DNA of 15,389 nucleotides from Nitrospirae bacterium CG2_30_53_67. GTDB taxonomy: Bacteria; CG2-30-53-67. Each line of letters begins with the position of its first letter. Position 1 is the first letter of the stretch. Below are positions 366-13,871 of this stretch, piece after piece. The stretch lies in assembly GCA_001873285.1 (NCBI GenBank), contig MNYV01000131.1, positions 1-15,389 on the forward strand, read 5' to 3'. Made by a program: the position numbers and the translations under genes. The notes under the pieces are model-generated. The model had not been told where the DNA came from. It searched no databases and saw only the letters and a list, made by a program, of their open reading frames with translations.

Positions 366-1649
366 TTAGCTCAGCAGTGTCCTCTTTTTCCCCGGTTCCT
401 TCTCCCTCCGGATTTCAGCGCCCAGACCTTGCAGCTTCTGCTCGATCCTCTCGTACCCTCGATCAATGTGATAGATCCTGGAAACCGTGGTTTCGCCCCG
501 GGCCGCAAGCCCGGCCAAAATCAGGGAGGCGCTGGCCCGGAGGTCCGTAGCCATGAGAGGGGCCCCGCTTAAGTGTTCCACCCCTCGAACCACGGCGCTG
601 TTTCCTTGCACGAGGATATCCGCTCCCATTCTGTGGAGCTCGGCCACATGCATGAACCGGTTCTCAAACACGGTCTCGGTGATCACGCTGGTCCCGCAAG
701 CGATCGTCATCAGGGCCATGAACTGGGCCTGCATATCCGTGGCAAATTCCGGATAGACCCCGGTCTTTACATCCACGGCATGGAGATCCCCGGATCTTCT
801 GATCCGGATGTCGCGGCCCATGATAGAAATCTCCGCCCCGGCCTCTCTGAGTTTGTTGATCACGGCATCCAGTTGCTCAGGGCGGCATCCTTCAACGGTG
901 ATATCTCCTCCGGTGATGGCCCCTGCCGCAAGAAACGTTCCGGTCTCGATTCTGTCGGGCATGATCTCATATGACATGCCCGAAAGGCCCTCCACGCCCT
1001 GGATCTCGATGCGGTCGCTTCCCGCCCCATAGATCCTTGCACCCATACGATTCAGGACGGAAGCGAGCTCCCCGACTTCCGGCTCACAGGCGGCATTTTC
1101 TATGACCGAGGTCCCCTTTGCCAGCGAGGCGGCCATCATGATATTCATGGTTCCGGTGACGGTGGGAAAATCCAGGGTGATCTTTGCGCCCTTGAGCACG
1201 GAGGCCTCGGCACAGGCATACCCTTTCTCAATGCGGATCCTGGCGCCCAGCTTTTCAAGGCCCATCAGGTGAATATTAATGGGCCTGGCGCCGATGGCGC
1301 ATCCGCCGGGCAGGGAGACCTCGGCTCGGCCGAACCGGGCGAGCAAAGGCCCCAGCACCAGTACCGATGCCCGCATGGTCTTGACCAGTTCATAGGAGGC
1401 CCGGTAACCTTGGACCCCGCCGGCGTAAAGTTCCATCCTTCCGGGTTCAGGCTGCTCGACCGCGACCCCGAGATCGCTGAGAAGAACGGACATGGTATTC
1501 ACGTCCCTGAGCGCCGGCACATTGGACAGGGAACACCGGCCCTGACAGAGCAGGGACGCGGCCATGATCGGAAGGGCGGCGTTCTTTGCCCCGCTGACCC
1601 TGACCTTTCCCATCAAAGGGGCGCCGCCCCGGATCACGATCCGTTCCAT
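366..1649 (-). CDS. murA: UDP-N-acetylglucosamine 1-carboxyvinyltransferase
   Basis: First committed step of peptidoglycan synthesis: transfers enolpyruvate from PEP to UDP-GlcNAc in the cytoplasm. The protein is 427 aa with the chosen start, close to the family's usual ~420. K22-N23 in SGAKNAALP and C117 in [13 protein letters not shown] correspond to the UDP-GlcNAc-binding Lys and the PEP/fosfomycin-reactive Cys of E. coli MurA (K22, C115). With the Cys present, the enzyme is predicted to be of the fosfomycin-sensitive type. [11 protein letters not shown] holds the catalytic Asp region. The frame opens 10 codons further up at 1679, but those codons lie in a repeat element; the ATG at 1649 has AGAGG 6-7 nt upstream and gives the normal N-terminus. 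The 5' leader is formed by repeat family A, whose end lies 16 nt before the ATG. Confidence 0.97.
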
Positions 1650-1665
1650 GTGAAACCTCTTTTTT

Positions 1666-1917
1666 GGTTCTTCTCCCATCTAGTGGGTAAGAAGGGTTCG
1701 AGGGTTCCAGGGGTCAAGGGGTCAAGTGAAATACTGTAACGCAAGCAAAATCTCCAGATAAAAACACTGGAACCCTTGACCCATGATGTTTTTAGCACTT
1801 CACTCGACCCCTTGAATCCTTGGCCCCTCGGACCCTCAAGTCTTGAAAATCACCTCACTTGACCCCTGGAATCCTTGACCCCTTGACCCCTGATGTTTTC
1901 ACCCACTCTTTTGGAGA
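1666..1917 (-). repeat. Family A MITE-like element, copy 1 (upstream of murA)
   Basis: Non-coding element of about 252 bp between rpsR and murA. Its ends form an imperfect inverted repeat: TCTCCCATCTAGTGGGT (1672-1688) against the reverse complement of 1901-1917, TCTCCAAAAGAGTGGGT (13 of 17 identical). Just inside are arrays based on the 8-nt unit GGGGTCAA, facing each other across the element. The middle carries AACGCAAGCAAAATCTCC followed by a small CCAG...CTGG hairpin, shared almost identically with copy 2. There is no plausible protein. The strand given is that of the downstream gene (murA), toward which the GGGAGAAGAACC end points. Confidence 0.8.
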
Positions 1918-1942
1918 TGATCTTCTTCTCTAAACCATGGGA

Positions 1943-2200
1943 TCAGGGCTCGGCAAAGGGTATGAGGGCGATATTACGGGCCCTTTTGATGGCCTCGGTC
2001 AGGATGCGCTGATGGGGTGCGCAATTCCCGGAGATCCTTCTCGGAATGATCTTCCCCCGCTCGGTGATGAAATTTCTCAGCAGCCGCATGTCCTTGTAGT
2101 CAACCGAGTCAATCTTGTTCTCGCATAAGCGGCAGACTTTTTTTCGGTAAAAAAATTTTTTCTTCTTTTTGGGATCTTGCTCCCGTTCCCGGTATGCCAT
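1943..2200 (-). CDS. rpsR: 30S ribosomal protein S18
   Basis: 85-aa primary binding partner of S6 on the platform of the small subunit. Diagnostic stretches are [37 protein letters not shown] and the terminal [10 protein letters not shown]. The N-terminus is a very basic [11 protein letters not shown] run. A CRLC motif plus the Cys of GNC are retained, as in Cys-containing S18 forms. Slightly longer than the ~75 aa of E. coli because of the N-terminal extension. The ATG at 2200 is preceded by AGGAG about 8 nt upstream. It follows rpsF on the same strand, but a family C repeat lies between, and neither ssb nor rplI is adjacent, unlike many bacteria. Confidence 0.97.
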
Positions 2201-2219
2201 ACGTTACTCTCCTATCTCT

Positions 2220-2370
2220 GACGGCTTCGTAAAAAGTCCGCCTGCGGCGTTACGCTTCATCCTTCGTCATTGCAGCGTACCTCTCAGTACGCCTCATTCC
2301 TCAGGATTCGCAAGCCTTGCATCCGGAGCTTTTTACTGTGCCGTCCCATTTTAGGACTTTTTACGAGTCC
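2220..2370. repeat. Family C MITE-like palindromic element between rpsF and rpsR
   Basis: About 150 bp bounded by inverted copies of TCGTAAAAAGTCC: left end GACGGCTTCGTAAAAAGTCC (2220-2239), right end GGACTTTTTACGAGTC (2354-2369). A second inner arm, AGCTTTTTACTGTGCCGTC (2327-2345), also mirrors the left end. The centre has a hairpin around GCGTACCTCTCAGTACGC. This type, with TTCGTAAAAAGTC ends, is familiar from general knowledge as a dispersed repeat in deltaproteobacterial-type genomes. The right end overlaps the 3' end of rpsF and contains its stop codon. Confidence 0.75.
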
Positions 2371-2732
2371 CTCATCTCCGCCTGTTGCGGAGGCGTGCCG
2401 GACAAGGACTCTTCGCCCTGTTTGAGCGAAGCGGTCTGCAGCGCCTCCTTCTCGATTCTGAGGGACATGAATTTTATGACGCTGTCATTGACGCGGTAAT
2501 TTCTCTCAAGCTCATGGAGAACGCCGCCGCTCCCCAAAAACTGCATGAGCACATAACGACCTTTCTTGTGCTTCTTCACGTCGTAGGCGAGCTTTTTCAC
2601 TCCCCAGTCATCCACGATATGGATCTCCCCGCCCTGCTTTCGGACAACTTCAGCCATGGTCTCTTTGATTTTTTCGGTCTCTTCAGGTGAGAGTTCGGGG
2701 TTGAGGATAAAAATGGATTCGTAGTAGTTCAT
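2361..2732 (-). CDS. rpsF: 30S ribosomal protein S6
   Basis: 123-aa S6 protein of the small-subunit platform; pairs with S18. The family signature is clear: MNYYESIFILNPELS at the N-terminus, DDWGVKKLAYDVKKHKKG, and the final strand YRVNDSVIKFMSLR. The start is the ATG at 2732, with AGGAGG 5 nt upstream; an in-frame GTG at 2738 overlaps the Shine-Dalgarno and is rejected. The C-terminal tail after about residue 100 is hydrophilic and not conserved. The last codons (GAC TCG) and the TAA stop lie inside the right end of the family C repeat, so the present C-terminus was probably set by its insertion. Two hairpins and a promoter-like sequence precede the gene. Confidence 0.96.
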   Translation of the reverse strand: MNYYESIFILNPELSPEETEKIKETMAEVVRKQGGEIHIVDDWGVKKLAYDVKKHKKGRYVLMQFLGSGGVLHELERNYRVNDSVIKFMSLRIEKEALQTASLKQGEESLSGTPPQQAEMRDS

Positions 2733-2755
2733 GATCACCTCCTTTTGGATATCAA

Positions 2756-2776
2756 GCCCCGGAACGTGTCCGGAGC
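2756..2776 (-). promoter_or_regulatory. Leader hairpin just before rpsF, possible S6:S18 autoregulatory site
   Basis: In the rpsF transcript GCUCCGGA pairs with UCCGGGGC around CACGU, an 8-bp stem ending about 12 nt before the Shine-Dalgarno. The S6:S18 complex is known to bind a leader RNA hairpin of its own operon in many bacteria, and position and a CCG-containing stem fit that idea. I could not confirm the consensus of that motif from memory, so the regulatory role is inference; the hairpin itself is seen. Confidence 0.35.
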
Positions 2777-2789
2777 AAGGGGTTATAAT

Positions 2790-2814
2790 GACCTGAATGT
2801 TTCAGGTCTTTTTT
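2790..2814 (+). terminator. Hairpin with T-run (plus-strand intrinsic terminator) opposite the rpsF leader
   Basis: GACCTGAA/TTCAGGTC is a perfect 8-bp stem with a 3-nt loop, followed by TTTTTT on the plus strand. It has the form of an intrinsic terminator for plus-strand transcription, yet no plus-strand gene lies immediately upstream; it would block antisense transcription coming out of rpsF. On the minus strand the same hairpin would sit near the 5' end of the rpsF leader, preceded by an A-run, where it could instead be a leader structure. Confidence 0.5.
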
Positions 2815-2826
2815 CGTGCGGCTTCA

Positions 2827-2856
2827 TGTATATCACAGTGAGCGTCTTGGTTTCAA
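2827..2856 (-). promoter_or_regulatory. Candidate promoter for rpsF-rpsR
   Basis: Read on the minus strand: TTGAAA (-35, at 2851-2856), an 18-nt spacer, then TATACA (-10, at 2827-2832). Predicted transcription begins near 2820, giving a leader of about 90 nt that includes the two hairpins upstream of rpsF. Recognised by eye only. Confidence 0.45.
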
Positions 2857-2893
2857 GCGTTTTTTTGCTTGATGCTTTTTTTTGCCTGAACCG

Positions 2894-2928
2894 AAAAAAG
2901 GCCCCCTCTCCAGGAAAAGAGGGTGGCC
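2894..2928 (-). terminator. Intrinsic terminator with no obvious gene
   Basis: On the minus strand GGCCACCCTCT pairs with AGAGGGGGCC (one bulged base) and is followed by TTTTTT. It is a strong-looking terminator, but the nearest minus-strand gene upstream (hppA) already has its own terminator some 430 bp earlier. It may be a leftover of a lost gene or a second barrier protecting the rpsF promoter. Confidence 0.6.
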
Positions 2929-2981
2929 TGATAGTCTTATTCAGGGGTCTTTTCACACAACTATTGGCAACTGTAAAACAA

Positions 2982-3083
2982 ATGTCCTATATGCGCCGCT
3001 GGTTATCCTCCTCACCCTCCCCTCTCCCCCTTTCTTTGAAGGGGGAGAGGATAAAGGTGAGGGGGTCCGAGATCATAGGACAT
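2982..3083. repeat. Family D palindromic element with 9-bp inverted ends
   Basis: A 102-bp segment bounded by ATGTCCTAT (2982-2990) and its exact inverse ATAGGACAT (3075-3083). Inside, CTCACC...CCCCTCTCCCCCTT mirrors AAGGGGGAGAGG...GGTGAG, making one long imperfect hairpin with its loop near 3039. It has no ATG-led coding capacity of its own. Pyrimidine-rich CCCTCTCCC palindromes of this style are common dispersed repeats in bacteria. Confidence 0.6.
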
Positions 3084-3177
3084 TACCAAATCCTTCCTCG
3101 ACTACCGAAAACTTCCCCTCCTCATAGGTGATTCTGCTGTGATCCGCCCGCCACAATTCCCTTTACAAATCCAATAG

Positions 3178-3306
3178 TACTTGATAAATGAGTACTTGCT
3201 GGACAAGAATCAGTTGTACGTCAATCTCTCCGAGATAGACGACGCGCAGTCTAACGATAAGGAGAAGGCGATGAAGCAGGCATTCTCCGGAGAAACGTAC
3301 GAGTAA
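3178..3306 (+). pseudogene. Short coding-like remnant, unknown protein (C-terminal piece)
   Basis: A 42-codon open frame follows an in-frame TAG (3175-3177) and ends at TAA (3304-3306). It contains the protein-like stretches YLLDKNQLYVNLSEIDD and DKEKAMKQAFSGETYE, with C/G-biased third positions typical of real genes in this window. There is no ATG and no ribosome-binding site; a TTG at 3181 is the only possible start. It ends about 20 bp before the hppA terminator, tail to tail. I do not recognise the family. It could be the tail of a gene mostly lost by deletion or cut by repeat insertion, or a small gene with an unusual start. Confidence 0.35.
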
Positions 3307-3328
3307 TCCTGACAGATTCTGCACAGCG

Positions 3329-3362
3329 AAAAAAGGCCCCTTCCTTTGGAGAAAGGGGCCTT
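3329..3362 (-). terminator. Intrinsic terminator of hppA
   Basis: On the minus strand AAGGCCCCTT and AAGGGGCCTT form a perfect 10-bp stem around a 10-nt loop, followed by a T-run. It begins 22 bp after the hppA stop codon. Confidence 0.85.
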
Positions 3363-3384
3363 AAAACGCCATGGACCGTAAAAA

Positions 3385-5448
3385 CTACCGGCCGGCCAGG
3401 GCCACAAGCGGCGCAATCACCAGGGAAACAATGGACATGAGTTTGATCAAAATATTCATGGCCGGTCCCGATGTATCCTTGAAGGGATCGCCGATGGTGT
3501 CTCCCACCACCGCGGCCTTGTGGGCGTCCGAACCCTTGCCGCCGAGGTTCCCTTTTTCAATATACTTCTTGGCATTGTCCCAGGCGCCGCCGCCGTTTCC
3601 CATGAAGAGGGCCATGAGAACTCCGGTCACCGTGGCGCCGGCCAGCATCCCCCCGAGGGCTTCAGGACCGAGAACAAATCCCACAACTAAGGGGAGAATG
3701 ACCGCCGTAAGTCCGGGCACGATCATCTCCCGAATGGCGGCAGCAGCGCTGATATCCACGCACTTCTTGGAATCAGGCTTGACATCGGGCTTTCCTTCGA
3801 GAAGGCCGGGGATCTCCCTGAACTGACGCCGGATCTCTTCGACCATTTTCATGGCGGCCTTGCCCACCGAGGTCATGGTCATCGCGGCGACCAGGAAGGG
3901 GATAATACCTCCGATAAAGAGGCCGATCACCACCTTGGCGTCGGTCACAATAATCTGCATCGATTGAAGACCGTTTCCGACCCGGGTATGATCAACGGCC
4001 TGGGTATAGGCGGAAAAAAGGGCCAGCGCCGTGAGCGCCGCAGAACCAATGGCAAACCCTTTGCCGATGGCCGCCGTGGTATTTCCCAGTGCATCCAGGG
4101 CGTCGGTGATCTTACGGGTTTCCTTACCCAGCCCGGCCATCTCGGAGATTCCGCCTGCGTTATCGGCCACGGGCCCATAGGCGTCCACGGACATGGTGAT
4201 TCCCACGGTTGCGAGCATGCCCACAGCCGAGATCCCGATACCGTAGAGTCCTGCCACCTTGTCGGCGACATAGATGGCCGCGCAGATGATCAGAACCGGA
4301 ATCGCCGTACTCTCAAGACCCACGGCAAGCCCCGTGATCACATTGGTGGCGGCGCCGGTCTTGCTGGACTCGGCGATCCGGACGATGGGACCGGCAGAGG
4401 TGTAATATTCAGTGACAAGACCGATGAAGATCCCGGCCAATGTCCCGACAAGCACGGCCCAGAACGCGGAATTATGCACCTCCATGGTGGTCACAACAAA
4501 CCAGGCAAGGATCAGAAAGAGGCCTGCGGCCACAAACGTGGAATAACGCAGGGCCGCTGCCGGGCTCCAGTTCTGCATGATCTTCATGGAAAGAATGCCG
4601 ATCAATGAGGCCACAAGCCCGAACATGGCCAGGATGATGGGTAGGCTCATATAACTCGACTTCAGGGCCGCGGTGATATGCGGATCGGTTTCCAGGGCGG
4701 TCGCAGCGATGGCGATGGTGGCGACGATGGATCCCACGTAGGACTCGAAGATGTCGGCGCCGAGGCCTGCCACGTCACCCACGTTATCACCTACGTTGTC
4801 GGCGATCACACCGGGGTTCCTGGGGTCGTCCTCGGGAATGCCGGCCTCAATTTTCCCGACCAGATCCGCTCCCACGTCAGCAGACTTGGTGTAGATCCCG
4901 CCGCCCACACGGGCGAAGAGGGCGATGGAGCTCGCTCCCATGGCGAATCCGTTGATGTTTGCAATCGCCAGCTGATTCGCCGGATCATGACCGAAAAAGT
5001 AATATGCAATCCCCAGGCCCATGATCCCGAGGCTGGCCACGGCAAGCCCCATGATGGCGCCGCCGCTGAATGCCATGGAAAGGGCCGGCCCGTGGTTCGG
5101 CTTGTTGGCCTCGGCGGCCTGAGCCGTTCTCACATTGGCGATGGTCGCCCCATTCATCCCGATAAAGCCGGCCAGGATGGAGCAGATCGCTCCGCCCACA
5201 AAACAAAAGGCGGTCATGATGCTCACCTTCCAGGTTAACAGGATAAAGACGATCACGATGAAGCCGGCAAGGACCTTGTACATGCGGAACAGGAAGACCA
5301 GGGCCCCATCATGGATCTGATCGGCAATATCTTTCATTCTTTCATTTCCCGCAGGCTTGGCCTTGAGCGATGAGAAGATGATGAACGCAAAGATCAGCCC
5401 GATGATCCCGATCAAAGGTGCAAGATTCGTGTTAAGAAGCATGGACAT
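3385..5448 (-). CDS. hppA: Membrane-bound ion-pumping pyrophosphatase, K+-dependent type
   Basis: 687-aa integral membrane enzyme, expected to have about 16 transmembrane helices, that hydrolyses pyrophosphate to pump H+ and/or Na+ across the inner membrane. All three acidic motif regions are intact: [11 protein letters not shown] (about 191-201) with EDDPRNP and [21 protein letters not shown] (about 422-433); and [17 protein letters not shown] near the C-terminus. NTTAAIGKG (about 456-464) has Ala where K+-independent enzymes have Lys (NTTKAxTKG), which marks the K+-dependent group. H+ versus Na+ specificity cannot be settled by eye. The frame opens 13 codons earlier, but AGGAGG (5457-5462) sits 8 nt before the ATG at 5448, deciding the start. 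The gene has its own terminator and an AT-rich leader, so is probably separately transcribed. Confidence 0.97.
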
Positions 5449-5642
5449 TTTCCGTTCCTCCTCTGCAAAAAAAATTAGAAAATCCATCGAAAAACTTAAA
5501 ATTAATCCCGGAAAACTAAAAACCTTAAAATTAGAATATTGATATTTAAATATATCTCTAAAAAAGTAAAGTTAGAATTTCTTATAGTTTTGTTAGTAAA
5601 TATTATCGTTGAGTTTTCATGCTATGGGAATCTCATTTTGTG
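5449..5642 (-). promoter_or_regulatory. AT-rich hppA leader/promoter region
   Basis: These 194 bp between pth and hppA are far more AT-rich than their surroundings, with runs such as TATATTTAAATATC on the minus strand and a T8 run just before the hppA ribosome-binding site. Several A/T hexamers could be -10 boxes and no single promoter stands out. The composition and gap suggest an independent hppA promoter and an A/T-rich, probably unstructured leader. No coding content is seen. Confidence 0.35.
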
Positions 5643-6200
5643 TTATGAATGAAAATGGTTCATGGCTTCAGTCATTCCATGTAAAACAAGGTATTCCATG
5701 ATATCCGCCGCTTTCTCGGCCCATTTCCGAGACTCGGCAGGGTCTGGAAAATTTCTTAACACATAGTCCGCCGGGTCCTCGCCCGCTTCAGGACGTCCGA
5801 TACCGATTCGGATCCGGACAAAATCGGCCCCGCATATTTCGATAATGGAGCGGAGCCCGTTGTGACCGCCGTGACCGCCTCCCTTCTTGATTTTGATTCG
5901 GCCTCGCTCCAGGTCTATATCGTCGTGGACCACGATTACGGATCCGATATGGACCTTGTCCTTACCCATGAGCGAGGCTAACGCCTCTCCGCTCCGGTTC
6001 ATGAAGGTCTGCGGCTTGGCCAGCAGGACCGGAATGCCGCCCATCTCTGCTTTCCCGACCAGGGACTTGCAACTCCTGTGCCGGAGCCGCATCCCTGCTC
6101 TCTTGGCCAACTCGTCAACGACCAGAAACCCGATATTGTGCCGGTGCTTCTGGTACTTGCGTCCCGGATTTCCGAGCCCGACGATCATGCGAAGATCCAT
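5643..6200 (-). CDS. pth: Peptidyl-tRNA hydrolase
   Basis: 185-aa cytoplasmic enzyme that frees tRNA from prematurely released peptidyl-tRNA. Catalytic and binding residues match E. coli closely: N11 in VGLGNPG, H21 in RHNIGF, N68 in TFMNRSG, D93 in VVHDDID and N114 in GHGGHNGLRS. Length is close to the usual ~190. The start is a little uncertain: ATG at 6200 (AAAGG about 10 nt upstream) or the ATG four codons later at 6188, which would put MIVGLGNPG at the N-terminus as in many homologues. It follows rplY by about 100 bp, the common rplY-pth arrangement. Confidence 0.97.
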   Translation of the reverse strand: MDLRMIVGLGNPGRKYQKHRHNIGFLVVDELAKRAGMRLRHRSCKSLVGKAEMGGIPVLLAKPQTFMNRSGEALASLMGKDKVHIGSVIVVHDDIDLERGRIKIKKGGGHGGHNGLRSIIEICGADFVRIRIGIGRPEAGEDPADYVLRNFPDPAESRKWAEKAADIMEYLVLHGMTEAMNHFHS

Positions 6201-6304
6201 GCCTGTGAGCCTTTTGCAATGGGACTTCTACCGACTTAGCGGCCTTTCATGCAGATTCGCAAAGAATGTCCGGCCGGTTCACACATGGATGAAATGAATG
6301 GCGC

Positions 6305-6979
6305 TCAACTCTTGGACCCGGGTTTCTTTTCGGTCGCATCGGGCTTTTCCGGGGCCTCTCCTTCGGGAGCAGCCCCCTCTTCAGCAACAGCCCCTTCCAC
6401 GGCCTCAGCCGGTTTGGCCGCCTCCTCCACCACAGGCGCCAGAACCGAATAGAGCACCTGATCTCCTGGCGTCAGAACCTTGACCCCCAGGTCCGGCAGA
6501 TCCGAGACATGAATCGCATCTCCCACATCCAGATTGGAGCAGTCAACCTGGAAAAACTCTGGAATTTCGTGGGGGAGGCATTCGATCTCCACGTGGCTCA
6601 AGGCATGGGTCAGAATCCCGCCCTTTTTGCACCCCTCAGGCGTGCCTCCCTCTGCCTTGACCTCCACCACGACCTTGATCTTCTGGTCCATGGAGACCTC
6701 AAAGAGGTCGGCATGAATCGGCACGCGTTGGATCGGATCCATCTGGACGTCCTTCAAGAGAGCCATCTTCTTGTTTCCGTCTATGGTGATCTCCAGGATG
6801 GCATTGAACCCGGCCTCGGATTTTAAAACCTGCTGTAAATCCTTGAGCCGGACGGTGAGGCTTCGGATGACTTCGTGTCCATACATCACGGCCGGAACCA
6901 TTCCCATCCGCCGGAGTTTCCTGGCCGCCCCTTTGCCTGCCGCTTCCCTTGATAAAACTTCGAGTGAAATCGTTTTCAT
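6305..6979 (-). CDS. rplY: 50S ribosomal protein L25 (CTC/TL5 type, long form)
   Basis: 224-aa 5S-rRNA-binding protein of the large subunit. The N-terminal L25 domain covers about residues 1-92 (EAAGKGAARKLRR, VPAVMYG, LLKDVQMDPIQRVPIHADLF). The second beta domain of the TL5/CTC type covers about 95-185 (VEVKAEGGTPEG, KGGILTHAL, IECLPHEIPEFFQVDCS, GDAIHVSDL). A low-complexity Ala/Glu/Pro tail fills about 187-224 and ends in a Lys-rich KKPGSKS. GAGGTG lies about 5 nt before the ATG at 6979. It is 25 bp downstream of prs, so certainly in the same operon. Confidence 0.96.
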   Translation of the reverse strand: MKTISLEVLSREAAGKGAARKLRRMGMVPAVMYGHEVIRSLTVRLKDLQQVLKSEAGFNAILEITIDGNKKMALLKDVQMDPIQRVPIHADLFEVSMDQKIKVVVEVKAEGGTPEGCKKGGILTHALSHVEIECLPHEIPEFFQVDCSNLDVGDAIHVSDLPDLGVKVLTPGDQVLYSVLAPVVEEAAKPAEAVEGAVAEEGAAPEGEAPEKPDATEKKPGSKS

Positions 6980-7004
6980 CTTGCACCTCTATATATCATG
7001 TTTC

Positions 7005-7937
7005 TTATTCAAAAAGTGTACTGATCGTGGTCTCTTCATGAATATTCTGAATGGCTTTGGAAAAGAGTTCTCCAATGGAGAGGATCACGATCTTTTTGCA
7101 CTGATCCCCTTTCTTGAAGGGGATACTGTTGGTCGCTACAACCTTGTTCAGGGCCGATTCATTGATCCGGGTCAGGGCCGGGCCTGACAGGACCGGATGC
7201 GTACAGCACGCGGAGACGCTCATGGCCCCCTGGTTCATAATCGCGCTGGATGCTTCAGCCAGAGTTCCTGCGGTATCCACCATGTCATCCAGGATCAATG
7301 CCTTTTTCCCTTCCACTTCACCGATCAGGTTCATGACCTTGGATTCATTGGGCATGGTACGCCGCTTGTCAATGATGGCGAGAGAGGCATTGAGCCGTTT
7401 GGCAAAGGCCCGGGCGCGTTGCACGCCGCCCGCATCCGGTGAGACCACCACGCAGCCCTCCCCATGCATTCCGTTCTTTCGAAAATAGTCGAGGAGTATC
7501 GGAGCGGAATACAGGTTGTCCACCGGGATATTGAAAAACCCTTGAATCTGACCCGCGTGCAGGTCCATGGTTAAGACGCGATTCGCTCCTGCGGTGGTGA
7601 TGAGATCGGCCACAAGCTTGGCGGTGATGGGAACCCTCGGAAGGACCTTACGGTCCTGCCTGGCATAGCCGTAATAAGGAAGAACGGCCGTAATGCGGCG
7701 GGCCGAAGCCCTCTTCATGGCATCGATCATGATCAGGAGTTCCATCAGGTTGTGATTGACCGGGTTACAGGTGGATTGGACCACAAAAACATCCCGGCCT
7801 CTCACGTTTTCATTGATCTGCACCATGATCTCACCGTCGCTGAAGGTGCTGACCTCGGCATCTCCCAGAGAAATATTCAAATGCCCGCAGATTTCTTTTG
7901 CAAGCTCCGGATCGGAGTTTCCGGAAAAGATCTTCAT
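7005..7937 (-). CDS. prs: Ribose-phosphate pyrophosphokinase (PRPP synthase)
   Basis: 310-aa cytoplasmic enzyme that makes PRPP from ribose-5-phosphate and ATP for nucleotide, His and Trp synthesis. Class I features: the N-terminal [13 protein letters not shown]; the ATP-binding YGYARQDRK loop (R93-K97); [12 protein letters not shown] with D125/H127; [15 protein letters not shown] at 191-193; and the PRPP loop [13 protein letters not shown] (214-226). Length is standard. The ATG at 7937 has AAGGA about 9-11 nt upstream. Its 5' side carries family A copy 2, which separates it from tRNA-Gln; the 75 bp between element and gene show no clear promoter. Confidence 0.98.
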
Positions 7938-8118
7938 CCCGCATGATCCTTTCTTGTGTCACATTCAAGAAGTGCCTTTTAACAAAAAGCTTGACTTCAC
8001 TAAACATTTTTAGTTCTTCTCCCCTTTAATGGGGAAAAAAGGGTTCGAGGATTCCAGGGGTCCAGGGGTCAAGTGAAATGCTGAAACGCAAGCAAAATCT
8101 CCAGAGAAAAACACTGGA

Positions 8119-8188
8119 TCCCAAGATGCCTTAGTGTAGTAGCCGTCGCAGACGGCAATGATATAGAAAAGCGGGACACGCGAAGCGT
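8119..8188. repeat. 70-bp insertion nested in family A copy 2
   Basis: Comparison with copy 1 shows that the sequence running from ACACTGGA into ACCCTTGACCCAT is interrupted here by about 70 bp. The insert contains a perfect 6-bp hairpin GCCGTC-GCA-GACGGC (8142-8156). No coding frame or obvious duplication is seen. Confidence 0.5.
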
Positions 8189-8236
8189 AACCCTTGACCC
8201 ATAGGACCCTCGGCCCCTTATATTTTTAGCACTTCA

Positions 8237-8264
8237 CCCCGTTAGAGGACAACCTCTAACGGGG
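8237..8264. repeat. Perfect 12-bp hairpin nested in family A copy 2
   Basis: CCCCGTTAGAGG and CCTCTAACGGGG form a perfect 12-bp stem around ACAA. Copy 1 lacks it at the equivalent place. There is no T-run on either side, so it is read as a nested palindromic repeat rather than a terminator. Confidence 0.65.
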
Positions 8265-8348
8265 TTCACTTGACCCCTGGAATCCTTGACCCCTTGACCC
8301 CTAATGTTTTCACCCGCTCTTTTGGATATGATCTAAATTTTATAAACA

Positions 8349-8422
8349 TGGCTCGGGGGCAGGGATTCGAACCCCGATAGCCAGAACCAAAATCTGGAGT
8401 CCTACCGTTGGACGACCCCCGA
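8349..8422 (-). tRNA. tRNA-Gln (anticodon TTG), CCA encoded
   Basis: Full cloverleaf on the minus strand: acceptor stem TCGGGGG/CCCCCGA; D arm GTCC...GGAC; anticodon stem CCAGA/TCTGG with loop TTTTGGT giving TTG; T arm CGGGG-TTCGAAT-CCCTG (one G-T pair). The discriminator G and CCA are encoded at 8349-8352. It lies about 50 bp downstream of spoVG and upstream of prs, so is probably cut from the operon transcript. Confidence 0.95.
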
Positions 8423-8475
8423 TTTCTATTTCCCGGTCTATGGACATAGTAAAAGGTGCGCCTCGGCTTCGGCCA

Positions 8476-8766
8476 TCAGGATCCGCTCCCCTCTCCCAAT
8501 CCCATAGTCCGGCTCTTGATGACCGTCCAATATTCGCTCAATACTTTTTCTTGAATTCTCTCGCGTGTCTCCGTATCCAGGGGATGCGCCGTATCCTTAA
8601 ACGTCCCGTCCGACCGGCGTCGGCTGGGCATGGCCACAAAGATCCCTTTTCGTCCCTCGATCACTTTTAAATCTCGAACCACAAAACAATCATCAATGGT
8701 AATCGTTGCATAAGCCTTCAGCATCTTGTCTGCTACCGGAAAGATGTGAACCTCTGTAATTTCCAT
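8476..8766 (-). CDS. spoVG: SpoVG family RNA/DNA-binding regulator
   Basis: 96-aa protein matching Bacillus SpoVG along its length: MEITEVHIFPV, KAYATITIDDCFVVRDLKVI, GIFVAMPSRR, DGTFKDTAHPLDTETRERI, VLSEY. SpoVG proteins bind nucleic acid and act as global, often post-transcriptional regulators; in non-sporulating bacteria the target is generally unknown. The frame stays open a further 69 codons to 8973, but those codons are family B repeat sequence; the ATG at 8766 gives the universal N-terminus and is preceded by an AAAGGTGGTGAT stretch. It sits between ispE and tRNA-Gln-prs, a common place for spoVG in deltaproteobacteria and Firmicutes relatives. Confidence 0.95.
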   Translation of the reverse strand: MEITEVHIFPVADKMLKAYATITIDDCFVVRDLKVIEGRKGIFVAMPSRRRSDGTFKDTAHPLDTETRERIQEKVLSEYWTVIKSRTMGLGEGSGS

Positions 8767-8810
8767 ACAGTTGACATCACCACCTTTCTGCCGTTGAAAG
8801 ATGTTCCTTA

Positions 8811-8973
8811 GTGGTCCTGTTCGTAAATATGGTGACGCACCGAGAGGATCGTAGGGCGGTCTCATCAAGGCACGCGACTGAGGCGTACCCTCTGTGGTAC
8901 GTCGCAAGGAGCGTAACGCAGAGGAGACCGCCCTACGGCACTCGAATGCCACCGTATTTACGAATAGGGCCAC
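8811..8973. mobile_element. Family B MITE, copy 1 (between ispE and spoVG)
   Basis: 163-bp element with long terminal inverted repeats: left GTGGTCCTGTTCGTAAATA and the inverse of the right end, GTGGCCCTATTCGTAAATA. A second nested pair, CGTAGGGCGGTCTC / GAGACCGCCCTACG, lies inside. It is flanked by TTA (8808-8810 and 8974-8976), a 3-bp target duplication. It begins 12 bp after the ispE stop codon and ends about 45 bp before the spoVG start. It carries no transposase. A 3-bp TTA/TAA duplication resembles the target choice of some IS5-family subgroups, so a transposase of that kind elsewhere in the genome is a reasonable guess. Confidence 0.88.
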
Positions 8974-8985
8974 TTACATTGGCTT

Positions 8986-9861
8986 CTATTCAAGCGATTC
9001 CGGCAAGGCGCTCAGCGTATGTATCATAAAAACCGATAGATCTTTTTTTTCTCCTAATTGCTGTTTTACGGCTCTGGCCGGATCCTCATCTGAAAAGGCC
9101 CCGAAAATAGCCGGCCCGCTTCCTGACATCAGGACATGCAGAGCACCCGAAGTTTCAAGTGTTTCTTTGATCTGCTTCAGGCATGGGTAAGCCTTAAAGG
9201 TTGCTCTTTCCAAATCGTTCTCTAAACAAATCCCGCCCGCACAGGAAACGGCGGGGAAAAACTTGGGTATGCTAATATTTTTATGTTCTATTGTCAACCC
9301 TAATTTTAGGTTCTGATATGCCCATGCCGTTGAAACTTTAAAACCCGGATAAATGAGGAGAATCCATAGGGGGGGAGATGGGGGAGAAAGTTTTTCAAGT
9401 ATTTCTCCCCTCCCTGTTGCATAGGCCGAGGGGGAGAAGAGAAAGAAGGGAACATCCATGCCGATCTTCCCGGCCAGATCCATGAGCCTCTCCCTGGGAA
9501 AACCGAGATCCCACAACCGGTTCAACCCGATCAGGGTTGCTGCGGCATCGCTGCTCCCCCCTCCCAGGCCGGCGGCAATGGGTATCCTCTTGGTCAGCCG
9601 TATCCGGACCGCCGGGAATTTTCCTGATTCCCTCGCCAACAACTCTGCCGCCCGATAGATCAGATTCTCTTCGCCGACAGGGAGATCGTCCCGATCGGTT
9701 TCGATCCGGATCCCGGTCCCTCCCTCTTGAATCAATAGATCGTCAAACAGAGAGATCATTTGCAGCACGGTCTCAATCTCGTGGTATCCGTCCGGCCTTT
9801 TCTTGAGGACGCGCAACCCGAAATTTATTTTTGCAGGCGCCCTCACCGCCGCCTGATTCAT
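8986..9861 (-). CDS. ispE: 4-diphosphocytidyl-2-C-methyl-D-erythritol kinase
   Basis: 291-aa GHMP-family kinase; phosphorylates CDP-ME in the non-mevalonate (MEP) isoprenoid pathway, so the organism uses that pathway. Motifs are complete: RAPAKINFGL (K11) with DGYHEIETV; the ATP loop PIAAGLGGGSSDAA (94-107); the catalytic Asp D136 in GMDVPFF; and SGSGPAIF (246-253). Length is typical. The ATG at 9861 overlaps the stop of the upstream LolB-like gene (ATGA) and is preceded by GGAG inside that gene, indicating translational coupling. A family B element inserted just past its stop codon. Confidence 0.97.
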   Translation of the reverse strand: MNQAAVRAPAKINFGLRVLKKRPDGYHEIETVLQMISLFDDLLIQEGGTGIRIETDRDDLPVGEENLIYRAAELLARESGKFPAVRIRLTKRIPIAAGLGGGSSDAAATLIGLNRLWDLGFPRERLMDLAGKIGMDVPFFLFSPSAYATGRGEILEKLSPPSPPLWILLIYPGFKVSTAWAYQNLKLGLTIEHKNISIPKFFPAVSCAGGICLENDLERATFKAYPCLKQIKETLETSGALHVLMSGSGPAIFGAFSDEDPARAVKQQLGEKKDLSVFMIHTLSALPESLE

Positions 9862-10628
9862 GGCCGATGGTCTCCATTCATATTCGTGGTTTCGAAAAGG
9901 CTCCCCTCTATAGCCTGATTCAGCAAAAGTGAACGGTATCGGAGTGTGAGCTCCACACCTTCAGAGCCGCTATAAGTGATATGGTAGGGGATGGAGATCC
10001 CCTCCACCGCTCGGAAATCGTCAAATACAAGCGTTTCCACGGGGCTGCCTTTTGCATTGAGCCGTTCCCAGCGGATGATCCGCCCGGCCGGATCCATCCA
10101 GACCTTCTGGATGACACGGCGGTCATTTAGGATTTTCAGCATGGTTTCTTCATGATCCGGCTCAATTAGGATATGATCCGGCTCCAGGGGTGGAAGGGGC
10201 GGTCTTCCCATGAGAATCCGGATAAGATCCGGTATGGAGAGGTCCAAGCCGAGGAATCGCTTCAGGGGTCCCGGTTCCGAAGCAAATTCATAGGTCTTGA
10301 ATTCTCCGGGGACCACAAAAACCCCTCTTTTCCCTCTTGAAATCATCAGAAGCTGCAGTCCGCCTGCGGGATTCCAGGATTCGAGCCGGACGGCGTCCGG
10401 TATCTGTAAAAGGATCACCTCTTCCATGGCGTCGCGGCCTGCTGATGTCCGGATGGACACCCTGGCCGTTCCGGTGAGCGTGTGAATACGTTGGGTCTCC
10501 TCTCGCATTTGTTGGATCATCTTCTGGTGAAGGATGATCTGGTCCGGGAGAAGAAACCATCTGGTTTTGGGGACACAGCCGCAAAACAAGATCAGGAGCG
10601 ACAAAAAAGATAAAACCGATTTCCTCAC
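9858..10628 (-). CDS. LolB-like outer-membrane lipoprotein of unknown role
   Basis: 256-aa predicted lipoprotein. The N-terminus MRKSVLSFLSLLILFCGC is a lipoprotein signal with the modified Cys probably C18 (Phe-Cys-Gly-Cys, an atypical lipobox). The mature part resembles the LolA/LolB half-barrel fold in layout: a TGTARVSIRTSAG strand, then LLQIPDAVRLESWNPAGG and repeated beta strands. LolB proper inserts lipoproteins in the outer membrane; whether this homologue does so is unknown. The start is GTG at 10628 with GAGGGGG about 5 nt upstream. The gene follows the TPR lipoprotein and overlaps ispE by 4 nt, an order seen in other deltaproteobacteria. The family B element inserted right upstream leaves its ribosome-binding site intact. 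Confidence 0.75.
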   Translation of the reverse strand: MRKSVLSFLSLLILFCGCVPKTRWFLLPDQIILHQKMIQQMREETQRIHTLTGTARVSIRTSAGRDAMEEVILLQIPDAVRLESWNPAGGLQLLMISRGKRGVFVVPGEFKTYEFASEPGPLKRFLGLDLSIPDLIRILMGRPPLPPLEPDHILIEPDHEETMLKILNDRRVIQKVWMDPAGRIIRWERLNAKGSPVETLVFDDFRAVEGISIPYHITYSGSEGVELTLRYRSLLLNQAIEGSLFETTNMNGDHRP

Positions 10629-10640
10629 ATCCCCCTCTAA

Positions 10641-10801
10641 GTGGCCCTGTTCGTAAATATGGTGACGTACCGAGAGGGTCGTAGGGCGGTCTCATCAAGG
10701 CGCGCGACTGAGGCGTACCCTCTGGTACACCGCAAGGAGCGCAACTTTGATCCGACCGCCCTACGACCCTCGAATACCATCGTATTTACGAATAGGGCCA
10801 C
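10641..10801. mobile_element. Family B MITE, copy 2 (at the TPR gene stop codon)
   Basis: 161-bp element in the same orientation as copy 1 and very similar to it, differing mainly around 10720-10755. The ends GTGGCCCTGTTCGTAAATA and the inverse GTGGCCCTATTCGTAAATA match well; flanking TAA at 10638-10640 and 10802-10804 is a perfect 3-bp target duplication. The insertion falls exactly on the TAG stop codon of the TPR gene. There is no transposase gene. Confidence 0.88.
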
Positions 10802-12525
10802 TAAGGCAATCCGTTATTCAGTTTATTGAGAAGAGACGGGTCATCAGGATTCGTCTTGAGCGCCTTCTCCCAATATTCCCTGGCCTTTTCAGGGTACCCG
10901 GCCTTGAAATAAGCATCCCCCAAATGCTCGGTCACGACAGGATCTCCAGGGAGATTCCCGTTGGATTGCTCCAGATATTTTACGGCATCATCAAAGCGGC
11001 CCATTTTAAAGTAGATCCATCCGAGGCTATCCAGATAATAGGCGTCTTCGGGTCGGATCTTGAGCGCTCGGACAATCAGGTCCTCGGCCTCTTTCAGGTT
11101 GATCCCTTTTTCAGCAAACATGTACCCCAGGTAGTTGAGGGCATTGCCGTTATCCGGGTTCAGTTCAATGGTCTTGCGGAAGGCCGCAACCGCATCATCA
11201 AAACGTTTCAGCCTTTCATAAACCACCCCTAACTGAAAATAGAGATTATCGTTATTCCCGTTCAGCCGGACGGCCTCCTGAAGGACCTCAACGGCCTTGG
11301 TGTCTTCTTTTTTAATGGAATAGATCATGCCGAGATACAAAAGGACTTCCGGATTGTCCGGCAGCTTTTCCCGGGTCTCCATCAGGAGAGTCACGGCCTT
11401 TTCCAGGCGGTCCATTTTTTGATAAAGCTGCGCCAGGCGGAAAATCGTATCCAGATCGTCCGGCATCATGGAAAGGACCTCAAGATATTCCTTTTCGGCG
11501 AGGTCCAGCTTTTCGGATCCTTCATAGGCCGCACCCAAATAAAAGTGCGCCTTCACGTTTCCCGGCTCCAAGGCCAGGGCAATCCTCAGCTCCTCGACCG
11601 CACGGCTCAGGTTCTCCTGTTGAAGATAAATCAGGCCCACCTTCAGGTGTGCGTCTGCATTGTTGGGCTCCAGTTCACTCAACTCTTTCAACTGACTCAG
11701 GGCCTTATCCATCTGATTCCCCTGGATATAGAGTATACTCAGCCTCTTCTGGATTTGCGTTTGATGGGGGTTGATCTTCAACGCTTTTTTATAGGTCTGA
11801 ATCGCCTTGTCGTTTTTTTTCTCGATCTCATATAGGATCCCAAGGCTGAGATAGGCCTGCATAAAATCCGGATCCGTGCGTATACTTTTTTCAAAATACC
11901 TTCCGGCCCGTGCAAACTCCTTCTGGTTGGCATACACCCGACCAAGATAATAATACCCCAGACTTTCCTGGTTCTTGATCCTTGAGAGTCTCTTGAAAAG
12001 TTCCACGGCCGGATCTGTCCGTCCCTGCTGCAGATAGAGGGTTCCGAGAAAGATATAGGCCTCATGTTGTCCGGGATTTAAACGCAGAACTTTTTCATAA
12101 ATCCGGACGGCATCATCCTGGCGCTTCAAGCTGGAGTAAACCCCGGCCGTCAGCATCAGCAAATTGACCGATTCCGGATCCATGGCAAGGGCCTTTTCGC
12201 AGGCATCGGCGGCCTTTTGCAGGTCTCCGTTCTGAAGGTAGAGAGATGCCAGATACGATTCGAGCAAAGGGGAGCCGGGATCAGCTTGCTCCGCCTTTTT
12301 AATCTCTTCCAGAGCCCCCTTCTGATCCCCCTTAAGCCGGTACCGGTTCGCATTCAAAAAATGGGCATAGGCCTTAGGAGATGCCGTCCGGACTCTGGTC
12401 GGCAGCTCGACTTTGGGTTCAGGAGGCGCCGCCGCACTCTCCGGTCCCACGGCATGATTGAGAATCGAGCAAGCGGAAAGAGTGAGAAGTGTGAAAACAG
12501 AAAAAAAGAACCATCTGAACCACAT
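10801..12525 (-). CDS. Lipoprotein with 15 tandem TPR repeats
   Basis: 574 aa. A lipoprotein signal MWFRWFFFSVFTLLTLSAC gives lipidated C19 (lipobox L-S-A-C), then a Pro/Ala/Glu linker to about residue 48. From there to about 563 run 15 consecutive 34-residue TPR units (the 13th has 35), most with the A-x-x-x-L/Y-x-G and A-x-x-x-Y/F-x-x-A-L pattern and P closing each unit. This forms a periplasmic superhelical binding scaffold anchored to a membrane, probably the outer one. Partner proteins are unknown; the adjacent LolB-like lipoprotein is the obvious candidate. AAGGAG lies 8 nt before the ATG at 12525. It appears to be first gene of the long operon. Its TAG stop sits at the junction with family B copy 2. 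Confidence 0.9.
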   Translation of the reverse strand: MWFRWFFFSVFTLLTLSACSILNHAVGPESAAAPPEPKVELPTRVRTASPKAYAHFLNANRYRLKGDQKGALEEIKKAEQADPGSPLLESYLASLYLQNGDLQKAADACEKALAMDPESVNLLMLTAGVYSSLKRQDDAVRIYEKVLRLNPGQHEAYIFLGTLYLQQGRTDPAVELFKRLSRIKNQESLGYYYLGRVYANQKEFARAGRYFEKSIRTDPDFMQAYLSLGILYEIEKKNDKAIQTYKKALKINPHQTQIQKRLSILYIQGNQMDKALSQLKELSELEPNNADAHLKVGLIYLQQENLSRAVEELRIALALEPGNVKAHFYLGAAYEGSEKLDLAEKEYLEVLSMMPDDLDTIFRLAQLYQKMDRLEKAVTLLMETREKLPDNPEVLLYLGMIYSIKKEDTKAVEVLQEAVRLNGNNDNLYFQLGVVYERLKRFDDAVAAFRKTIELNPDNGNALNYLGYMFAEKGINLKEAEDLIVRALKIRPEDAYYLDSLGWIYFKMGRFDDAVKYLEQSNGNLPGDPVVTEHLGDAYFKAGYPEKAREYWEKALKTNPDDPSLLNKLNNGLP

Positions 12526-12566
12526 GTTAAAAACTCCTTAAAAAAACATAGGGTTACAATTCTATA

Positions 12567-12595
12567 AACTTAACTGATTTTGGCTCCATTGTCAA
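12567..12595 (-). promoter_or_regulatory. Candidate promoter of the TPR-lolB-ispE-spoVG-prs operon
   Basis: On the minus strand a perfect TTGACA (12590-12595) is followed after 17 nt by TAAGTT (12567-12572), a weak -10. Transcription would start near 12560, leaving a leader of about 35 nt to the TPR gene. The -35 is convincing, the -10 less so. Confidence 0.4.
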
Positions 12596-12658
12596 AATAA
12601 AAATCTCCGCTTGAATGCGTTTTCGTTTGGCATTATCTTATTTATTATTTTATGATCA

Positions 12659-12900
12659 GCTCCAAAAGAGTGGGTGAAAACATAAGGTTTCAAGGGATCA
12701 AGGATTCCAGGGGTCAAGTGAAGTGCTTTTCAAAAACTTGAGGGTCCGAGTGAAAAGCTTAGCAAGAAGCTGAGGGGTTAACAGATCAAGAGCCCCGGGG
12801 GCAGGTGAGATGATAAAAGAATATCTAAATCAAAAAACCCTTGGACCCTATAACCCTTGACCCCTCGACCCCTTTTTAACCACTAAATGGGAGAAGAACC
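12659..12900 (+). repeat. Family A MITE-like element, copy 3 (upstream of the ABC exporter)
   Basis: Inverted relative to copies 1 and 2. It begins with TCCAAAAGAGTGGGTGAAAAC and ends with CCACTAAATGGGAGAAGAACC, the complements of the two ends of copy 1. GGGGTCAA-type units follow each end in mirrored orientation, and CTTGAGGGTCCGAG near 12738 matches the inner right part of copy 1. The AACGCAAGCAAAATC core of copies 1 and 2 is missing; the middle has diverged or been replaced. It fills most of the 413-bp divergent gap between the TPR gene and the exporter, leaving only the TPR gene's promoter stretch. The strand given is that of the downstream gene. Confidence 0.75.
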
Positions 12901-12938
12901 TTTAATTGCCCGCTTTTATTTCGCCCGGAGATAGGGAC

Positions 12939-13871
12939 ATGGAACCGCTGATCATTGCGAAACACCTGACCAAAAGATTCGGCGAGGTTGCCGCCGTAAA
13001 AGGGGTTGATTTCACAGTCTATAAAGGGGAATGCTTTGGGTTTCTCGGACCCAATGGGGCGGGGAAAACCAGCACGATCCGGATGATTTACGGCTTCTCT
13101 CCCATGACCGCAGGCGTCTTGAAGGTCATGGGCATGGACATCCGGACATCGGCAAGATTAATTAAAAAGCATATCGGCGTGGTCTCCCAGGAAAACAATC
13201 TGGATACGGACCTGACGCTTATGGAAAACCTCCTGGTCTACTCCCGGTATTTCAACATCCCTAAAAAAGAGGCTTTGACGCGGGCCCGGCAGCTCATCGA
13301 ATTCATGCAGCTTGGAGATAAAATCCATCATCTGGTAGAACATCTTTCCGGGGGAATGAAACGGCGTCTGGTCCTTGCCCGGGCGCTCATCAATTCTCCG
13401 AGCCTCCTCCTTCTGGATGAACCCACGACCGGCCTTGACCCGCAGGCCCGCCATCTGATCTGGCAGAGGCTACGCTCCTTGAAAAAGACCGGGGTTTCCA
13501 TCATCCTGACCACACACTACATGGAAGAAGCGGCGCAGCTCTGCGACCGGATCGCGGTCATGGACCACGGTAAAATCATTGCAGCGGGCCCGCCCAAGGA
13601 GATGATCCTGACGCACGTGGGCGCCGAGATCATTGAACTTCGAATTGCCCCTGAACTGGATGAGGAGATCAGAACCTCGCTTCATGACCTTGAGCTCAAA
13701 ACCGATCGATTCGACGATACGTTCTATATTTATATCCCGGCGGGAAAGCCCCTCTTCAAAGAACTGACGCACAGGCTGATTCAATACACCCATACGGAAA
13801 TGGTTCATCGACCGGCAACCCTTGAGGATCTTTTTTTACAGTTGACAGGAAGGGAACTCTCCGAATCATGA
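12939..13871 (+). CDS. ABC transporter ATP-binding protein, NodI-like
   Basis: 310-aa cytoplasmic ATPase of an ABC-2 type exporter. Walker A is GPNGAGKT (37-44), Q-loop Q84, signature LSGGM (136-140), Walker B LLLLDEP (156-162), and switch His H193 in TTHYMEEA. The ~90-residue C-terminal extension after residue 215 is typical of the NodI/CcmA-like subfamily. The frame could start at a TTG at 12906, but the ATG at 12939 has GGAG 8 nt upstream and a normal N-terminus. The stop overlaps the permease start by 4 nt (ATGA). NodIJ of rhizobia export lipo-oligosaccharide; homologues in free-living bacteria have unknown, probably lipid- or glycan-like, substrates. Confidence 0.93.
   Translation: MEPLIIAKHLTKRFGEVAAVKGVDFTVYKGECFGFLGPNGAGKTSTIRMIYGFSPMTAGVLKVMGMDIRTSARLIKKHIGVVSQENNLDTDLTLMENLLVYSRYFNIPKKEALTRARQLIEFMQLGDKIHHLVEHLSGGMKRRLVLARALINSPSLLLLDEPTTGLDPQARHLIWQRLRSLKKTGVSIILTTHYMEEAAQLCDRIAVMDHGKIIAAGPPKEMILTHVGAEIIELRIAPELDEEIRTSLHDLELKTDRFDDTFYIYIPAGKPLFKELTHRLIQYTHTEMVHRPATLEDLFLQLTGRELSES

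Follow-up and report, generated by a model that had tools for sequence, protein, structure and literature searches.

A MITE family with a strong orientation bias near gene starts in Nitrospirae bacterium CG2_30_53_67

Three copies and their neighbours

The window, by which we mean the whole 15,389-nucleotide stretch of DNA analyzed here, comes from Nitrospirae bacterium CG2_30_53_67 and contains three intergenic copies of one MITE family. A complete copy is made up of an R end (TCCAAAAGAGTGGGTG) and an L end (GGGAGAAGAAC); we refer to the direction from R to L as the sense of the element and to that from L to R as its antisense. The copies and the features around them are as follows.

366..1649, minus strand: murA, downstream of copy 1 (gene call, ORF translation)
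1658..1665, no strand: target duplication on the L side of copy 1; its partner is 1924-1931, and 6 of 8 positions match
1666..1923, minus strand: MITE copy 1, sense, between rpsR and murA (both minus); R on the rpsR side, L facing murA
1943..2200, minus strand: rpsR, upstream of copy 1 (gene call, ORF translation)
7005..7937, minus strand: prs, downstream of copy 2 (gene call, ORF translation)
8012..8334, minus strand: MITE copy 2, sense, between a tRNA gene and prs (both minus); has an extra inner module and a hairpin
8352..8422, minus strand: tRNA gene, upstream of copy 2 (Rfam tRNA, 58.3 bits)
12627..12656, plus strand: promoter-like site TTGGCA-18-TATGAT (10/12), immediately ahead of copy 3's R end and directed into the element, toward the ABC transporter gene
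12653..12900, plus strand: MITE copy 3, between divergent genes for a TPR protein (minus) and an ABC transporter (plus); L faces the ABC transporter gene
12939..13871, plus strand: ABC transporter ATP-binding gene, downstream of copy 3 (gene call; NCBIfam ABC transporter family matches)

A sequence-only reading of the window had described three copies with shared inverted ends and inner arrays, and all three are present, with imperfect ends. When aligned with the R end first and the L end last, they have in common G-rich and C-rich inner arrays that are mutual inverted repeats. The copies are real but slightly longer than that reading had them, since their true limits, given above, are set by flanking 8-bp duplications. 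Those of copy 2, at 8004-8011 and 8335-8342, agree at 6 of 8 positions, and the 8-mers beside copy 3 (12645-12652 and 12901-12908) at only 4 of 8. The start codon of the next gene lies 16-17 nt away for murA, 74-75 nt for prs and 38-39 nt for the ABC transporter gene, in agreement with the earlier values. The same end was said to face the downstream start in all three cases, and it does, but copy 3 sits between divergent genes and would face a start either way. Because of this only two of the three copies are informative, and the chance level within the window, previously put at 1 in 4, is 1 in 2.

About one promoter-like site of the kind found before copy 3 is expected by chance in the scanned region. 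The L-end ATG of copy 1 (1650-1679) is in frame with murA, and automatic annotation may place the murA start inside the element; an N-terminal extension through this ATG was considered and rejected, as the frame is random genome-wide. Two more inverted-repeat families are found in the window (2219-2375; 8807-8976 and 10637-10812); the sister species (G001) has many copies of them, and they show no consistent orientation to genes.

A mobile family and its target sites

The family is spread throughout the genome. In the 2.36-Mb assembly (183 contigs), the R-end pattern with up to three mismatches was matched 115 times and its backward-read control not once, giving at least 115 R ends; exact L-end matches numbered 68, against 2 for the backward-read control. 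Family members are mostly 140-440 bp long and contain no transposase gene; those with two recognised ends measure about 120-430 bp and have imperfect inverted ends. One gene cluster (L111, 2979-7024) holds three of them, after folP, after cdaA and after glmM. A variant of the L end carries the insert CCGATGGCTCGTAGA (L235, L237, L239, L241, L247, L255 and others); the 23-mer GCCGATGGCTCGTAGAGGAGAAG, the same as in this insert, is also found in unrelated repeated sequence, with one such occurrence (L256) near a group II intron.

Just outside their ends, the 52 two-ended copies are flanked by 8-bp direct repeats, which are perfect in 13 copies and match at 7 or more of 8 positions in 25. The mean match is 5.54 compared to 3.58 in shuffled pairs, and it never exceeded 4.17 in 2000 shuffles. 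The target sequence is rich in A and T and almost a palindrome (WWAAWTWW). On a syntenic contig of the sister species, with the same genes, the element is absent at all three window sites. The murA-rpsR site there (L233) has the footprint TCTTTTTT-GGT-TCTTCTCT, that is, both duplications with three bases between them, and copy 1 was therefore probably lost from the sister species rather than never there.

The sister species also has a disrupted transposase of the ISL3 family (PF01610). Its upstream end reads TACCCACTCGTTTGGGAGAAGACCC and is very similar to the L end TACCCACTAAATGGGAGAAGAACC; no second end of this truncated remnant was found. Ends starting with GG and the 8-bp AT-rich duplication are features shared with ISL3-family insertion sequences. 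Unlike these, the copies described here have no transposase, and none was detected in the window's own genome assembly; an intact ISL3 transposase was also absent from the eight genomes of the class that were searched. Given the duplications, the empty sites and the end of the ISL3 remnant, the family is a MITE, a non-autonomous transposon, and most likely one of the ISL3 type.

Orientation relative to gene starts

As the sequence-only reading had proposed, orientation was tabulated across the genome. We examined about 0.57 Mb of sequence around the copies, called genes with a home-made codon-based caller that recovered the genes of the window, and recorded each copy against its neighbours. 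The comparison base is a fragmented assembly and one close relative; the counts leave out 43 copies at contig ends with one neighbour missing, and copies with no recognisable second end were oriented from the end found. Between co-directional genes, the L end points toward the downstream start in 68 copies and the R end in 5 (p = 3e-15); for two-ended copies the numbers are 38 and 0 (p = 7e-12). A hand count in the sister species gave about 13 to 3, a result that is only partly independent, as at least seven of its sites are common to both genomes. The L-end variant with the insert shows a weaker bias (8 sense versus 5 antisense, both species pooled). As a control, the two other repeat families of the window show no such bias, on small counts (2 to 6 and 1 to 3).

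The bias depends on distance. Of 72 L ends facing a start, 56 are no more than 60 nt from it, compared to 1 of 18 R ends (p = 2e-8); the remaining gaps from R to a start range from 65 to over 600 nt. Among tandem genes the near class (up to 60 nt, a cut-off set after looking at the data) has about 45 sense copies to 1 antisense, and the small far class has 6 to 4 (p = 0.003 for near against far). The single antisense copy of the near class lies about 30 nt from mfd; its R end has diverged, and it was added after inspection. The earlier suggestion that only one orientation is tolerated is supported by this pattern, with a strong bias close to starts and none farther off. Two antisense copies are known next to a start, at mfd here and at engB in the sister species. 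Between R and the start, about 10 of the 18 genes faced by an R end have a promoter-like site with a score close to or higher than the 99th percentile for random 150-mers; several of these sites are nearly perfect. In divergent regions the end nearer a start is usually L, and both R-R copies lie between convergent genes.

Sense copies occupy tight spaces: the reconstructed spacing before insertion has a median of 60 nt and is 100 nt or less in 31 of 38. Many lie at what we take to be classical operon junctions, among them murF-mraY, tgt-yajC, folP-cdaA, argD-argF and purD-purE. What the biased copies have in common is a downstream gene that needs transcription through the element, and the bias is located where that gene has no room for a promoter of its own. 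To our knowledge, no ISL3 MITE that follows an orientation rule of this kind has been described, and our literature search returned none. The search did bring up orientation effects for bacterial MITEs, with no case like the present one.

Orientation effects are reported for the ERIC elements of enterobacteria, intergenic MITEs that are co-transcribed with their neighbours and alter transcripts in an orientation-dependent manner (PMC2229807, PMC3049150). The ERIC effect differs in acting on the upstream transcript via an RNase E site, whereas the constraint here is on the downstream start, and no sequence match was seen between the two. The BOX, RUP and SPRITE repeats of pneumococcus are likewise modular, hairpin-forming, present in high copy and variable in size between strains. 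About 61-63% of them are on the leading strand, which mirrors gene bias, and they are over-represented away from co-transcribed junctions (PMC3049150); the present copies, in contrast, are common inside operons and nearly all point one way near starts. A compact hairpin followed by a U run, as in a SPRITE-like terminator, was absent from the three window copies. The uniform orientation also led us to consider an integron attC-like arrangement, which was rejected on the basis of the housekeeping neighbours and the 8-bp duplications.

Selection, insertion and function

The explanation that we consider probable is that a non-autonomous MITE, probably of ISL3 type, is purged by selection where it would be read through in antisense and is tolerated in sense. 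Insertion would take place in intergenic DNA rich in A and T, with duplication of 8 bp and no strong orientation signal in the target. Selection would then remove those copies where transcription of the next gene has to pass through the antisense strand, leaving the L end nearly always toward the next start in operons and leaders; if a gene has retained a promoter of its own between the element and its start, copies would survive in either orientation. The share that lies between tandem genes is the same for copies as for element-free intergenic regions (p = 1), so no positive function is needed; the pattern would arise from randomly spread copies once those read through in antisense are lost. 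We infer selection rather than an insertion bias. Against the explanation as a whole stand the small far class and the two antisense copies beside a start. In addition, no antisense copy is found among those with perfect duplications, meaning that such copies are lost quickly or that insertion has a bias of its own.

What blocks the antisense strand is conjectural. Premature Rho-type termination on a long C-rich, G-poor antisense RNA appears the most plausible mechanism, RNA of this composition being the kind of sequence used by Rho. The C-rich, G-poor stretch is longer in the antisense RNA: the median excess of C over G is 26 there versus 15 in the sense RNA, and the antisense value is the higher one in 48 of 52 copies. 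In the two antisense copies beside a start the excess is unusually low (16 at mfd, 12 at engB), values that 2 of the 52 two-ended copies reach; this comparison is post hoc, and engB is confounded by its short length. Intrinsic termination would predict the opposite bias, because the sense strand carries the better U run.

A promoter in the L end, directed outward, or a terminator-plus-promoter unit could instead mean that copies with L near a start were kept for driving the gene. Promoters are indeed carried by other bacterial MITEs, among them the Correia elements of Neisseria, which are likewise high-copy and near gene starts and contain sigma-70 promoters (PMC10969869), and L ends come down to 6-10 nt from a start, leaving no space for another nearby promoter. 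Sigma-70 promoters like those of Correia elements are, however, not recognisable in the present element, where both ends score at background: the best score is 5.3 for the consensus element in sense and the median is 6.1 for the L end with its flank, compared to a median of 5.1 and a 90th percentile of 8.4 for random sequence. Moreover, sense copies show no excess relative to convergent ones (p = 0.65), and copy 3 has its promoter-like site just before the R end. We consider this reading unlikely, and the promoter in the 5' leader that the sequence-only reading had offered as an example did not stand out.

Orientation might also be fixed at insertion, through a polarity of the transposase relative to transcription or replication. 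The lack of antisense copies with perfect duplications fits such a polarity, but the target is nearly palindromic, the bias is absent more than 60 nt from starts, and a strand rule alone would not place L nearer a start in divergent regions. A bias set at insertion is quite unlikely.

It is very unlikely in our judgement that the sense element has been adopted as an RNA module, for processing or insulation between genes, in dozens of core operons; if true, a single mobile family would have a part in operon expression throughout the genome. The RNA switch suggested earlier is not borne out either: the Rfam search of the window returned only the tRNA and no riboswitch or structured RNA in the element, and inner modules have been gained and lost at orthologous sites. 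Copies shared by the two species (L133/L207, L116/L216, L149/L221) differ by whole inner modules of about 85 bp or more and are otherwise mostly very similar, and this coming and going argues against a conserved RNA fold. Least probable of all is harm to translation by the R end, whose well-conserved outward reading UUUUGGAGAUGAUCC would act as a decoy ribosome-binding site and start before the real one: R ends hardly ever come to within 60 nt of a start, yet GGAG and AUG are adjacent, unlike in a working site, and the L end also has an AUG, in random frame relative to the gene (15, 19, 19).

More than 100 natural insertions of one element are a ready-made experiment on which intergenic content operons tolerate. 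The near-exclusive orientation at starts predicts that transcription can pass through one strand and not through the other. The family also illustrates that the core operons of a small genome can fill with a mobile element and stay unbroken.
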